This document shows, in pieces, positions 18,078 through 24,180 of a stretch of 35,373 nt of DNA (the first letter of the stretch is position 1; each line of letters begins with the position of its first letter). Location: positions 1 to 35,373 of the forward strand of contig JAGRHA010000234.1 of NCBI GenBank assembly GCA_020445205.1. The letters run 5' to 3'. The position numbers were made by a program, and so were the translations under genes. Source of the DNA: Gammaproteobacteria bacterium. GTDB lineage: Bacteria > Pseudomonadota > Gammaproteobacteria > Chromatiales > Chromatiaceae. Under the pieces are notes generated by a model. That model was not told the origin of the DNA and searched no databases. It saw only the letters and a list, made by a program, of their open reading frames with translations.

Positions 18078-18283
18078 GGGCGCATGGTAATAAGGGGCGC
18101 GACCGCTGTCACGATGGATCAACGAGCACCGCCACGTACCACCTTTGCCGCCCTGCCCTGCTATGATGCGGAGCCCCCCAGCCAACGACGTCGCGACCGC
18201 CCACATGACACCCGTCCGCCCAGCCATCGATACCTGCCGTGCACGCCCCCGGCGCGCGGCGCGCACGTCTGCGCGATGACCGG

Positions 18284-19510
18284 ATGTCGATGCTGAACCC
18301 CGAGGCTGACAGCGGCACGGCAGCCAGCGCCCCGCAACCGATGCGTACGCTGACCGTCGACGATATGCGCATCACCCTGCTGGGTACGGCGCACGTCTCC
18401 CGCAGCAGTGCGGAACAGGTCGCGAGCGAACTCGACAGCGGCGCATACGACGCCGTCGCGATCGAGCTGTGCCCGAGCCGCCACGAGGCGCTCATGCGCC
18501 CGGACCGGCTCGCTGAACTCGACCTCATGCAGGTTATCCGGCAGGGCAAGGCAGCCATGGTCATGGCCAACCTGGCGATGGCCGCTTACCAGCAGCGCCT
18601 GGGCGAACAACTCGGTATCGAACCGGGCGCCGAGATGCGCATGGCGATCGACCAGGCGCAGCGCCACGATCTGCCCGTGCTGCTCATCGACCGCGAAATC
18701 GGCACGACCCTGAACCGCACGGCCCGCAGTCTGAGCTGGTGGCGACGCGCGACCCTGTTCAGTGGACTCGTCGGCAGCCTGATCTCGCGTGAGGAGGTCA
18801 GCGAGGAAGACATCGAACACCTCAAGGAAGGTGACGTGGTCGAGACGACGTTTGCCGAGTTCGCACACGACCGCAACGACCTGTACCAACCGCTGATCGC
18901 CGAGCGTGATCGCTACATGGCGGCGAAACTGCGCGCGGCAGCAGGGGATCATCCCGGTCGGCATGTCCTCGCCGTGGTCGGCGCAGGCCACCTGGCCGGT
19001 ATCGCCCGCCATCTCGGCGACACCGACGAGCCGCACGAGGTCATCGAGCTGCTCGACAGCGTACCGTCCAAGGCGCGGTGGCCGCGGCTGATCCCATGGC
19101 TGATCGTGGTCCTCGTGCTGTTCGGTTTCTACCTCGGTTTCAGTCGCAACCCGGATCTCGGCTGGCAGCTGGTACGCGACTGGGTACTGATCAATGGCGG
19201 CCTGTCGGCGCTGGGCGCCCTGATCGCCGCTGGGCACCCGCTGACCGTGGTGACCGCCTTCATCGCCGCACCGATCACGTCACTGAACCCGACCATCGGT
19301 GCCGGCATGGTCACGGCGGCGGCAGAATTGTGGCTGCGGCGCCCACGTGTCGGCGACTTCAGCCGCCTGCGCGGCGATACCGCCACACCGCGCGGCTGGT
19401 GGCGCAACCGCGTCTCGCGCACCCTGCTGGTATTCCTGTTCAGCACCCTGGGATCGGCGCTGGGAACCTATCTCGCGGGATACCTGATTTTTGACCGACT
19501 TAACGGTTGA
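18284..19510 (+). CDS. TraB-family (GumN/PrgY-like) membrane protein
   Basis: Predicted inner-membrane protein of 408 residues. The N-terminal TraB domain contains ITLLGTAHVSRSSAEQV, then YDAVAIELCPSRHEALM, RDRYMAAKLRAAA and VVGAGHLAGIARHL; the conserved Gly, His and Glu are in the usual order. The C-terminal part (from about residue 265) has about four membrane helices. TraB-domain proteins include enterococcal PrgY, which inhibits peptide sex pheromone, and archaeal/bacterial homologues of unknown role; a metalloprotease-like activity has been proposed. The start at 18284 is uncertain, since an ATG two codons downstream and a GTG upstream (18239) are also in frame and no good ribosome site is seen. 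Confidence 0.88.
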   Translation: MSMLNPEADSGTAASAPQPMRTLTVDDMRITLLGTAHVSRSSAEQVASELDSGAYDAVAIELCPSRHEALMRPDRLAELDLMQVIRQGKAAMVMANLAMAAYQQRLGEQLGIEPGAEMRMAIDQAQRHDLPVLLIDREIGTTLNRTARSLSWWRRATLFSGLVGSLISREEVSEEDIEHLKEGDVVETTFAEFAHDRNDLYQPLIAERDRYMAAKLRAAAGDHPGRHVLAVVGAGHLAGIARHLGDTDEPHEVIELLDSVPSKARWPRLIPWLIVVLVLFGFYLGFSRNPDLGWQLVRDWVLINGGLSALGALIAAGHPLTVVTAFIAAPITSLNPTIGAGMVTAAAELWLRRPRVGDFSRLRGDTATPRGWWRNRVSRTLLVFLFSTLGSALGTYLAGYLIFDRLNG

Positions 19511-19601
19511 GCGAGAAAGCCGATCCCGCCGCAAACAGATTCCATCGACGAAACAGCGGCTTGCGGGAAAGGCGGGAATTCCCCTAGGTAGTTCCCCGGC
19601 T

Positions 19602-19865
19602 GCATCGCCTGGCTCGAGACACTAGTCTTGTAAACACTGGCCCTCGGGCTGGTGAAAACGTCGACAGGGATCGACGTTGTCGACCTGCTCGGAGACCGCG
19701 TTGTCCTCGGGAACGGTGCAGTGCACGGATCTACCGTTCACTGTCCCGCGCTCGCAGTAAGCCTCGCGAACCCTCCGAGAGGCGACTGAATGCCTATCCC
19801 GTGGAGGTTACCCCCTCCGGAAAACTGTGCAGAACCAACCCCGCTTCCGCGGGGTTTGTTCTTTG
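19602..19865 (+). ncRNA. Candidate structured small RNA, possibly CsrA/RsmA-binding
   Basis: Non-coding interval of 382 bases between the TraB gene and the RND stop. Three kinds of structure are seen on the plus strand. An end-closing pairing joins TCGCCT and CTCG (19605-19616) to CGAG and AGGCGA (19777-19786). A hairpin AACGTCG-ACAGGGAT-CGACGTT (19657-19678) has an 8-base loop that equals the core of the CsrA consensus ACARGGAU. A second hairpin GAACGGT/ACCGTTC (19711-19739) carries ACGGAT in its loop. GGAGG/CCTCC and a terminator follow. No promoter or GacA box was found, and it does not match the 6S, tmRNA, RNase P or SRP sequences I know. Confidence 0.42.
19837..19865 (+). terminator. Intrinsic terminator of the candidate small RNA
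   Basis: AACCCCGC-TTCC-GCGGGGTT, an 8-bp stem with a tetraloop, is followed by TTTGTTCTTTG on the plus strand. On the minus strand the tail is GGTTC, so it would serve the RND gene less well. Confidence 0.8.
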
Positions 19866-19892
19866 TGGTGGCTGCATCGCCTAGCGACGCGA

Positions 19893-22800
19893 TCAGGCAG
19901 AATCCTTGATGCTCGCCAAGCGCTTACACATCACGCCGTAGTACACCACCGGGATCACGATCAAGGTCAGGATCGTCGACACGAACAGTCCGAAGATCAG
20001 CGACACGGCGAGCCCGGAGAAGATCGGATCGTCGAGGATGAAAAAGGCACCGGCCATGGCCGCAAGACCGGTCAGCACGATCGGCTTCGCGCGCACCGCC
20101 GCCGAACGCACGACCGCGCGATCGAAGGGCACACCCGCACGCACCTCCTGGTTGATGAAATCGACGAGCAGAATCGAGTTGCGCACGATGATCCCGGCCA
20201 GCGCGATCATGCCGATCATCGACGTAGCCGTGAACTGGCCGGCCCCCGTGAGCCACTGCATGATCGCGTGCCCGGGCAGGATGCCGATCACGGTCAACGG
20301 AATCGGCGCCATGATCACGAGCGGCACGAGGTAGGAGCGGAACTGGGCCACCACCAGCAGGTAGATGAGCAGCAGACCGACCGAGTAGGCGATGCCCATA
20401 TCGCGGAAGGTGTCGTAGGTCACCTGCCACTCGCCATCCCACTTGATGCTGTACTCGTAGGGGTTGGGCGGCTGCGACAGCAACCACTGCTCGGGTCCAC
20501 CCTCCTGCTCCAGGCGGTCGGAGATCTCGAACAGACCGTACAGCGGACTGTCGGTGGATCCGGCCATGTCACCCGTCACATAGACGACAGGCAACAGGTC
20601 CTTGTGCTGGATGCTGTACTCGCGCACCGCGGGTACTACGGCCACCATCTCCGACAGTGGTACCAGCGCACCCGTTTCGCTACGCACCTTGAGCGCCAGG
20701 ACCTGGGACAGGTCGGCGCGGTCGGCCTCGCTGTAGCGCACGCGGATCGGCACGGCGTATTTGTGGTGGGTGGCGTGCAGGTAGCTCATGTCCTCGCCGC
20801 CGAGCGCGATGCCGAGCGCCTCGACGATGCTGCTCTGTGCCACGCCCAGGCGGGCCGCCTTGGCACGATCGACGAGCACCACGCCCTTCTCGGACGGATA
20901 CTCGACCGAGTCGTCGACGTCGACGATGTCGGGCGTGGTCTCGAAGGTCTTGCGCAACGCCTTGGCCACCACGATCTGGCCTTCGTAGTCGAGCCCGTAG
21001 ACTTCGGCGACCAACGGCGACATCACGGGCGGTCCCGGCGGCACTTCGACGACCTTGGCGTTGCCGCCCTGGGCACGCGCGATCGCCTGCACCTTCTCGC
21101 GCACCGACAACGCAATCTCGTGACTCTTGCGGTCACGGTGCTTGGCGTCGGTAAGGTTGACCTGGATATCGCCGAGGTGGGCGCCTTCACGCAGATAGTA
21201 CTGGCGCACCAGCCCGTTGAAGCTGATCGGTGCCGCGGTCCCCGAGTAGACCTGATAATCGGTCACTTCCGGCACGCTGGCGATGTATGCCGAGATATCG
21301 GACAGCACGCGCGTGGTGTGTTCGAGACTGCTGCCCTCGGGCATGTCGAGCACAATCTGGAACTCCGACTTGTTGTCGAATGGCAGCATCTTGAGGATCA
21401 CCGCCTTGCCGACGACCAGCAGCACCGACAGCGCGATCAGCACCAGGATGCCGACGAGCAACTTCCAGCGGTTGCGGAAGCCGGCAACGCCGACCAGGAA
21501 CGGCGACATGACGCGGTCGAAAAAACGCTCCAGACCGGGGCTCGACTCGTGCTCATGCGTGTGCGCCTCGAACTTCTTCGCCACCGAGGCCAACATGCGG
21601 TTGCTCATCCACGGCGTGAATACGAACGCGACGACGAGCGAGATCAGCATGCCGAGCGAGGCGTTGATCGGGATCGGGCTCATGTACGGTCCCATGAGAC
21701 CGGTCACGAAGGCCATCGGCAGCAGCGCCGCGATGACCGTGAACGTGGCCAGGATGGTCGGCCCACCGACCTCGTCGACCGCGGCCGGGATCGCGTCGAG
21801 CAGGCGCTTGGCCCCCATCGACAGATGACGATGGATGTTCTCGACCACGACGATGGCGTCGTCGACGAGGATACCGATCGAGAAGATCAGGGCGAACAGT
21901 GACACACGGTTGAGCGTGAAACCCCACGCCCACGACGCGAACAGGGTGACGGCGAGCGTCACCACCACGGCGGCGCCGACGATGATCGCTTCGCGCCAGC
22001 CCAGCGCGATCAGCACCAGCAGCACCACCGACGCGGTCGCGAACACCAGCTTGCTGATGAGCTTCTTTGCCTTGGCATCGGCCGTGGCACCGTAGTTGCG
22101 CGTCACCTGCACACCGATGCTGTCCGGGATGTAGATACCCTCGAGCTGAGCGAAACGGTCGATGACACGCTGCGCGATCTCGACCGCGTTGGTGCCCGGC
22201 TTCTTGGCCACGGCGATCGTCACGGCGGGTGCCTCGAACGCGTCGCGCAGCGCGGCATCGGTGATGGCCGGCCCGGCACCCGTCCAGACATAGCTTGCGG
22301 GAAGGTCGGGGCCGCGGCGTACCTGCGCGACATCGCGCAGGAACACGGGCTTGCCCTCGTGCACACCGACCACGAGGTCCTCGATCTCGTCGGCATGGCT
22401 GAGGAACACACCGGCCTGCACCAGCAGTTCCTGGTCGCGCGCGACCACGCCGATGTTGTCGCGGGTGACGTTGGCCGCCTGCAGCGCGGCGCGCAGGTCA
22501 CGTGGATCCATGCCATGCGAAGCCAGCGCCTGCGGATCGAGTTCCACGGCAACCACATGCTCGGCGGCGCCGATCGTGTAGATGTCGCGCGTGCCGGGGA
22601 CGCGTTTGAGTTCCGACTCGATGGCGTGTGCCACCTGACCGAGCTCGAACGCGCCTGCGTCGGGGTTTTTCGCCCATAAGGTCACCGTGACGATGGGCAC
22701 GTCGTCGATGCCCTTCGGCTTGACGATCGGCGTTCCCACACCGGCACCGGCGGGCAGCCAATCCTGGTTCGACATGATCTTGCTGTACAAACGCACGATC

Positions 22801-23129
22801 GCATCGGTGCGGTCTTCGCCCACCAGGTACTGCACCGTCAGCACGGCCATACCGGGCATCGATGTCGAGTACACGTGCTCGATACCGTCGATCTCGTCGA
22901 GAACCTGCTCGGCAGGCGACGCGATCAGACTCTCGACCTCCTTCGCCGAGGCACCCGGGAACGGGATGAAGACATTGGCGAACGTGACGTTGATCTGCGG
23001 TTCTTCCTCGCGCGGCGTGACCATGACCGCGAACACGCCGAGCAGCATGCCCACGAGCGCAAGCAGCGGCGTGATCTGAGTGGCCTGGAAGCGCTTGGCG
23101 ATGCCGCCGGAGAAGCCGAGCTTACTCAT
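19893..23129 (-). CDS. RND efflux permease (AcrB-type superfamily)
   Basis: Proton-driven inner-membrane exporter of 1078 residues, the normal size for the family. The N-terminal helix (about 12-38) is followed by a periplasmic porter domain containing VESLIASPAEQVLDEIDG and GTPIVKPKG. The first membrane block has SIGILVDDAIVVVENIHR, with the paired Asp of the proton relay in helix 4. A second porter region and a second membrane block follow (GMIALAGIIVRNSILLVDFI, AVRAKPIVLTGLAAM). It resembles the broad group of HAE-type permeases with PREEEPQI after the first helix; the substrate is unknown. The ATG at 23129 overlaps the end of the fusion-protein gene by 8 bases. No outer-membrane channel gene is in the window. 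Confidence 0.95.
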   Translation of the reverse strand: MSKLGFSGGIAKRFQATQITPLLALVGMLLGVFAVMVTPREEEPQINVTFANVFIPFPGASAKEVESLIASPAEQVLDEIDGIEHVYSTSMPGMAVLTVQYLVGEDRTDAIVRLYSKIMSNQDWLPAGAGVGTPIVKPKGIDDVPIVTVTLWAKNPDAGAFELGQVAHAIESELKRVPGTRDIYTIGAAEHVVAVELDPQALASHGMDPRDLRAALQAANVTRDNIGVVARDQELLVQAGVFLSHADEIEDLVVGVHEGKPVFLRDVAQVRRGPDLPASYVWTGAGPAITDAALRDAFEAPAVTIAVAKKPGTNAVEIAQRVIDRFAQLEGIYIPDSIGVQVTRNYGATADAKAKKLISKLVFATASVVLLVLIALGWREAIIVGAAVVVTLAVTLFASWAWGFTLNRVSLFALIFSIGILVDDAIVVVENIHRHLSMGAKRLLDAIPAAVDEVGGPTILATFTVIAALLPMAFVTGLMGPYMSPIPINASLGMLISLVVAFVFTPWMSNRMLASVAKKFEAHTHEHESSPGLERFFDRVMSPFLVGVAGFRNRWKLLVGILVLIALSVLLVVGKAVILKMLPFDNKSEFQIVLDMPEGSSLEHTTRVLSDISAYIASVPEVTDYQVYSGTAAPISFNGLVRQYYLREGAHLGDIQVNLTDAKHRDRKSHEIALSVREKVQAIARAQGGNAKVVEVPPGPPVMSPLVAEVYGLDYEGQIVVAKALRKTFETTPDIVDVDDSVEYPSEKGVVLVDRAKAARLGVAQSSIVEALGIALGGEDMSYLHATHHKYAVPIRVRYSEADRADLSQVLALKVRSETGALVPLSEMVAVVPAVREYSIQHKDLLPVVYVTGDMAGSTDSPLYGLFEISDRLEQEGGPEQWLLSQPPNPYEYSIKWDGEWQVTYDTFRDMGIAYSVGLLLIYLLVVAQFRSYLVPLVIMAPIPLTVIGILPGHAIMQWLTGAGQFTATSMIGMIALAGIIVRNSILLVDFINQEVRAGVPFDRAVVRSAAVRAKPIVLTGLAAMAGAFFILDDPIFSGLAVSLIFGLFVSTILTLIVIPVVYYGVMCKRLASIKDSA

Positions 23130-24180
23130 TGCCCACCTGCGCACTGCGCTGCGATTTCAGCGCGATCGTTGCAGCAACGGGATCGGTGGCCACACGTTCA
23201 CCCTCGTGCAGGCCGGAAAGGATTTCCACGTGTTCCGGGCCGGCCGGCGAACCGAGCCGGATGTGGCGAAAACGGATGCTGCCATCGTCGCCGACCACGT
23301 AGACACCGACCACTTCCGAACGCAGCACGATGGACGACAGCGGGATGACCAGCGCACGGTCGACACCCGTGACGAAACCGACCTTCACGTACATGCCGGG
23401 AAACACCCCGGTCGTGTCCTCGGGTAGCTGTAAACGGACCTTGAAGGTGTCGGATCGCGAATCGGCAACCGGGAAAACCGTGACCGACGCCGCCGCGACC
23501 CACTTGCCCGCGACCTGCGCCTGAGCCTTGCCCTCACTGCGAATCGCCGCGACCAGGTTCTGCGGCACGTCGACAGTGACGCGCATATTGTCGACCGACA
23601 GCCCCGACATCAGCGGCTTGCCGGGCTGCGCGGTTTCGCCGACCTCGATCAGGCGTTCGATCACGATGCCGTTGTACGGCGCCACGACTTCCGTGTACGC
23701 GAGTTCCTGGCGGGCCTGCGATAGCGCCGCCTCGGCGGCCTGTTCCGATGCGCGTGCCTCTTTGAGGTTCGCGGTCACCCTGTCGAGTTCGGCCTTGGCG
23801 ACGGCGCCCTTGTCGAACACGCCCTTGATCCGCGTATATTCCTTCTCGGCATCCAGGCGACGCGCGACCGCGGCCTTCAGCAGGGCCTCGTCGCGCGTCA
23901 CCGAGGCGCGCTGTTGGCTGTCCTCGAGGCGCACGATGACATCGCCCGCCCGCACATAGTCGTCGACGTCGAAATTGACCTCGACCACGCGACCGGAGGT
24001 CTGTGCCGACACCGTGCTGCGATTGACCGCCTCGGCAACCCCGTCGAGACGGTAAACCTGCGGCAGTTCGACGTTGGCGACGGACACCGTGGCCAGCTCC
24101 TCGGCCGACCACACCACGCCGACGCTCAGCCACGCCAGCAGCGCCGCGAAAATGACCCCTGGCCGGTTGGTGATGCCCAT
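23122..24180 (-). CDS. RND efflux periplasmic adaptor (membrane fusion protein)
   Basis: Periplasmic adaptor of 352 residues that couples the RND permease to an outer-membrane channel. A signal-like hydrophobic segment (residues about 9-30) is followed by a lipoyl half-motif (VSAQTSGRVVEVNFDVDDYV, AGDVIVRLED). A coiled-coil hairpin covers about 70-145 (LKEARASEQAAEAALSQARQ), with the second lipoyl half APYNGIVIERLIEVGETA. Beta-barrel and membrane-proximal domains complete it (FPGMYVKVGF, VIPLSSIVLRSEVVGVYVV). The ATG at 24180 has GGAAGGA just upstream; an in-frame ATG seven codons earlier (24201) lacks one. Overlap with the permease implies one operon, first in order. Confidence 0.93.
   Translation of the reverse strand: MGITNRPGVIFAALLAWLSVGVVWSAEELATVSVANVELPQVYRLDGVAEAVNRSTVSAQTSGRVVEVNFDVDDYVRAGDVIVRLEDSQQRASVTRDEALLKAAVARRLDAEKEYTRIKGVFDKGAVAKAELDRVTANLKEARASEQAAEAALSQARQELAYTEVVAPYNGIVIERLIEVGETAQPGKPLMSGLSVDNMRVTVDVPQNLVAAIRSEGKAQAQVAGKWVAAASVTVFPVADSRSDTFKVRLQLPEDTTGVFPGMYVKVGFVTGVDRALVIPLSSIVLRSEVVGVYVVGDDGSIRFRHIRLGSPAGPEHVEILSGLHEGERVATDPVAATIALKSQRSAQVGNE

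Follow-up and report, generated by a model that had tools for sequence, protein, structure and literature searches.

High-affinity Csr/Rsm sites are hexaloops of the form ANGGAX (PMC4005645), and described RNAs differ in the number of GGA motifs that they hold: E. coli CsrB bears 22 (PMC7652899), and RsmW has 7, of which 3 are exposed (PMC4950607). The predicted small RNA considered here lies in a 35,373-nt stretch of DNA from a member of the Chromatiaceae, referred to below as the window. It is like CsrB, RsmY and RsmZ in being a stand-alone intergenic RNA of similar size with consecutive hairpins, a probable activator-driven promoter and an intrinsic terminator, but it differs from them in showing no GGA enrichment, conservation or exposure, no GacA box and no Rfam match. 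It also resembles the Hfq-dependent trans-acting small RNAs of Gammaproteobacteria in its promoter-like region, its hairpins, the conserved linker by its terminator and the presence of an Hfq gene in the genome, whereas it is longer than most of these RNAs, carries a long and variable hairpin (P3) and has no identified target.

A sequence-only reading of positions 19602-19865 had proposed a CsrA/RsmA-binding small RNA with its own terminator, possibly a sponge of an undescribed type. From the comparison of related genomes, the locus almost certainly holds a small-RNA gene that had not been described before, about 230 bases long and conserved in one genus of sulfur-bacteria relatives, and we consider it very probable that this gene represents a real, new and genus-restricted family of structured small RNAs. 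A literature search on small RNAs in uncultured Chromatiales returned nothing relevant; a well-supported new small-RNA family is hereby added for this group, together with a covariation-tested model by which the RNA can be found.

Distribution and genomic setting

Relatives of the RNA were identified by DNA similarity search in eight of the nine genomes of the genus, the genome of the window included, and a pattern scan of named genomes showed that five of the RNA-carrying genomes are metagenome-assembled genomes of Gammaproteobacteria, Chromatiaceae and Chromatiales. The region downstream of the traB gene (see below) was also read in the ninth genome (G006), and the RNA element is absent there. 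When a covariance model was run against 210 genomes of the family, the full RNA was found nowhere outside the eight genomes. The model matches the window at 19635-19865 with 128.8 bits, but the window is one of its eight training sequences, so that its scores on these sequences are non-independent evidence; the independent evidence consists of the eight loci found by DNA similarity search and their covariation. Those weak family-level matches of the model that were read in sequence resemble unrelated terminators or hairpins, and the same is true of a second match in the window's own genome (C253, E 2e-5). In other genera, the traB orthologs examined, at loci where the end of traB was located, have no such element downstream. 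The RNA is restricted to one Chromatiales genus.

At the Rfam gathering score, no family matched in the window or in its seven relatives, in agreement with the earlier statement that the RNA belongs to no recognised family. Matches at relaxed thresholds were terminator-like chance matches only, and the RsmY match is limited to the terminator and, at 15.7 bits, falls below the gathering score of 57. One may argue that the locus encodes 6S RNA (RF00013) or some other housekeeping RNA in diverged form, given the match in size and single copy. Yet 6S RNA is found at another locus in eight of the nine genomes (at G000:C457:14580-14767 in the window's own genome), which refutes 6S itself, RF00013 is among the families without a match in the window at the gathering threshold, and the present RNA has a different, multi-hairpin architecture and occurs in one genus only, all of which makes such an identity extremely improbable.

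The RNA interval lies between the + strand traB gene upstream, a member of the TraB/PrgY/GumN family (18239-19510; Pfam PF01963, E 8.8e-30), and a convergent − strand RND (AcrB-type) transporter gene downstream (19893-23144; Pfam PF00873, E 6.4e-151). In every one of the eight genomes that carry the RNA, it is located directly 3' of traB. The gene beyond the RNA is not the RND transporter in at least two congeners (L011 and L012); thus, the downstream neighbourhood is rearranged while the pair of traB and RNA is kept, and the RNA keeps company with traB rather than with the transporter. A mobile element is ruled out by the single copy found in a search of the own genome, by the absence of matches in the phage, plasmid and viral-contig collections searched, and by the fixed position after traB. 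A coding small ORF is ruled out as well, since the small ORFs have no consistent reading frame when compared across orthologs. In the window, the RNA is flanked by a 16-nt direct repeat, GGCTGCATCGCCTGGC at 19598-19613 and GGCTGCATCGCCTAGC at 19870-19885, with the copies 272 nt apart; none of the sequences read from relatives showed a downstream copy.

Fold and covariation

The 264-nt interval has a minimum free energy of -121.8 kcal/mol, compared with a mean of -91.6 for dinucleotide shuffles (z -6.0, no shuffle being as good), and the strong structure anticipated from the sequence is thereby borne out. An alignment of the eight orthologs (A3) yields five helices, P1, P2, P3, P4 and the terminator. 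Fifteen base pairs have changes on both sides, against a shuffled mean of 5.6, and this count was reached by none of 500 shuffles; when the partners are slid by 1-3 columns, only 0-4 compensated pairs are left. These compensated pairs are the stronger point, because the structure was derived from the same sequences and the proportion of cells with standard pairs, 94.7% in the five-helix structure and 37-50% after sliding, is therefore biased relative to the slid controls.

Compensatory change is concentrated mostly within P1 and P3. The P1 stem (19635-19654, + strand) has 3/6 pairs changed on both sides, and P3, a long hairpin (19679-19786, + strand) with a conserved base and a species-variable tip, has compensatory change in 9/15 base pairs. 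P2 (19657-19678, + strand), with the loop CAGGGA at 19665-19670 that reads GGGA, GCGA or GGUA among the orthologs, is paired in 97.9% of cells, and P4 (19802-19819, + strand), with its GGAG/CUCC stem, in 95.8%. A candidate pseudoknot between GGGA of the P2 loop and UCCC before P4 has 90.6% of cells paired and zero compensatory changes. The RNA ends in an intrinsic terminator (19831-19865, + strand) with a 14-bp stem at 19831-19862, recovered by both the terminator scan and the alignment structure, so the strong terminator of the sequence-only reading is indeed present. It is probably shared with the convergent gene, and the covariance model gives the terminator a score on the other strand as well. 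One relative (G002) has neither P1 nor the greater part of P3. Much of the RNA is therefore dispensable, a point against the explanation preferred below, and P2, P4, the linker and the terminator are left as the conserved core. A covariance search with related genomes had been named beforehand as a way of checking the proposal. The orthologs, the compensated pairs and the lack of an Rfam match given above, together with the promoter-like elements described next, lend good support to a small RNA that stands alone, ends in a terminator of its own and belongs to no known family.

Promoter-like elements and transcript ends

Upstream of the structured part lies a conserved 19-bp box, TTCCCYTAGGTNNTTCCCC (19579-19597, + strand), which is near-invariant in the eight genomes and is a probable activator-binding site. 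It is on the same strand as traB, 67-68 nt past the traB stop codon in the six of the eight genomes in which this distance was measured. A probable -10 element, TAGTCT (19623-19628, + strand; TAnnnT in 8/8), follows at a distance that is near-fixed across the genomes measured, and its T, A and T are invariant in an alignment of the eight genomes (A1); the -35 is weak, and the start is predicted at about 19634. Allowing up to two mismatches, the box occurs essentially only at the RNA locus, once per genome in the genus: G003 has a second match, which is a contig end that bears traB with the same flank, and G005 has two further ones elsewhere, each with two mismatches. A sigma-70 consensus scan found no promoter; this would be expected of an activator-dependent promoter whose -35 is weak, but is not proof of one.

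These elements make it likely that the RNA has a dedicated promoter, with a start near 19634 rather than at 19602, and that 19602-19630 is, most likely, promoter outside the transcript. The 5' end had previously been placed at 19602, with paired ends described as a feature of the RNA. Neither point holds up well: GCAU at 19602 pairs only weakly in the minimum free energy structure, and with the start near 19634 and 19602 inside the promoter, the paired ends would not be a feature of the transcript at all.

The same elements bear on whether the RNA is instead a 3'-UTR element of the traB mRNA or a processed 3' fragment of it, which stabilises or terminates the traB transcript and has no promoter of its own. 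The RNA is always downstream of traB, on the same strand and at a near-constant 67-68 nt, and it ends in a strong terminator, as would suit such an element. However, the box and the -10 ahead of the structured part resemble a promoter, and the traB orthologs examined in other genera have no such RNA element after them where the end of traB was located; we regard this explanation as rather unlikely.

The P2 loop and CsrA

In a CsrB/RsmZ-like sponge, hairpin loops would expose GGA motifs and thereby sequester CsrA. CsrA is encoded in all nine genomes of the genus, so the test of a sponge is a fair one. A strong CsrA-family match is present in 8/8 congeners, whereas the own genome gives two weak matches only (G000:C146 and G000:C35), probably due to its incomplete assembly (91%, 508 contigs).

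The P2 hairpin does carry the CsrA-consensus-like octamer noticed earlier (ACAGGGAT at 19664-19671), and its loop is GGGA in five of the eight orthologs. In the other three, however, the GGA of the loop is missing (GCGA in two, GGUA in one), and the loop of the window, CAGGGA closed by A-U, is not the hexaloop ANGGAX (PMC4005645). Against the 22 GGA motifs of CsrB (PMC7652899), there are 2-8 per RNA in this family. In none of the orthologs does the count exceed that of dinucleotide shuffles (P 0.10-0.91); the unpaired ones number 1, 2, 2, 1, 0, 0, 0 and 0 in the eight orthologs, with none in half of them. As to the further GGA sites pointed out earlier, the RNA at 19635-19865 has six GGA in all where 4.8 are expected (P = 0.31), only one of them accessible. 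The ACGGAT that had been assigned to the loop of a second hairpin sits in a stem, where ACGG pairs with CCGU around a loop of AUCUA and the unpaired probability of the GGA is 0.0. The octamer ACARGGAT itself occurs twice in the window, with 1.1 expected at its size and composition, and is thus unremarkable. In addition, the GacA/UvrY box TGTAAG-N6-CTTACA has no exact match in the nine genomes of the genus, a weaker point as some lineages use other boxes. Taken together, these points make the role of a CsrA sponge highly unlikely, and that part of the sequence-only reading is not upheld. A perfect match to the CsrA consensus core can mislead if orthologs are ignored.

The linker and a possible mode of action

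The linker GAAAAACUGUGCA, which runs from P4 to the terminator (GGAAAACUGUGC, 19819-19830, + strand) and is near-invariant in the eight genomes, is the most conserved non-helical piece of the RNA. Its unpaired probability is 0.45-0.65, compared with 0.33-0.40 for the whole RNA, and it is only partly unpaired. By analogy with known small RNAs, this candidate segment would be expected to be the site of mRNA pairing or of protein binding. Hfq is encoded in all nine genomes of the genus.

The best explanation of the whole, which we hold with moderate confidence, is an activator-controlled, Hfq-assisted, trans base-pairing small RNA of this Chromatiales genus. The computation supports the structure, the conservation, the promoter-like elements, the terminator, the restriction to the genus and the presence of Hfq. 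A putative transcription factor at the TTCCCYTAGGTNNTTCCCC box would activate the promoter with its weak -35 and TAnnnT -10; transcription would start near 19634 and stop at the terminator, which ends at about 19865; and the resulting RNA of roughly 230 nt would fold as P1-P4 and the terminator. It may then act in trans with Hfq and pair with target mRNAs via GAAAAACUGUGCA. The complement of the linker, searched as the 12-nt pattern TGCACAGTTTTY, gave no target common to the genomes searched, so the base-pairing step is one that we infer.

Alternatively, the linker may be conserved as a site for a protein. In that case, the RNA would be bound by a protein other than CsrA, with the P2 loop and the linker as recognition sites and no base-pairing role. 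That the most conserved pieces are one hairpin and one linker, and that no conserved mRNA complement of the linker was found, is consistent with such binding, but the P2 loop is altered in three of the eight genomes and there is no candidate protein, and we consider it unlikely. Less probable still, the conserved P2 hairpin, the linker and the terminator might act by sequestering or guiding a protein for which regulation by RNA is not yet known, with P3 as a fast-evolving arm and the whole under an undescribed regulator with essentially one site, the box, per genome.

As to the trans base-pairing RNA that we prefer, just two places similar to the linker complement came up, one each in G000 and G001, which were considered as mRNA targets and set aside; they lie upstream of a probable promoter and are thus probably DNA elements. 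Repeated TGCACAG motifs are common to the two genomes, at L125 (G000:C453:2094) and L118 (G001:C46:67662), next to elements that are similar to TTGACA/TATATT and to TGTCCACA/ATATTGTG, and they resemble DNA sites of a regulator or of the NrdR/DnaA type.
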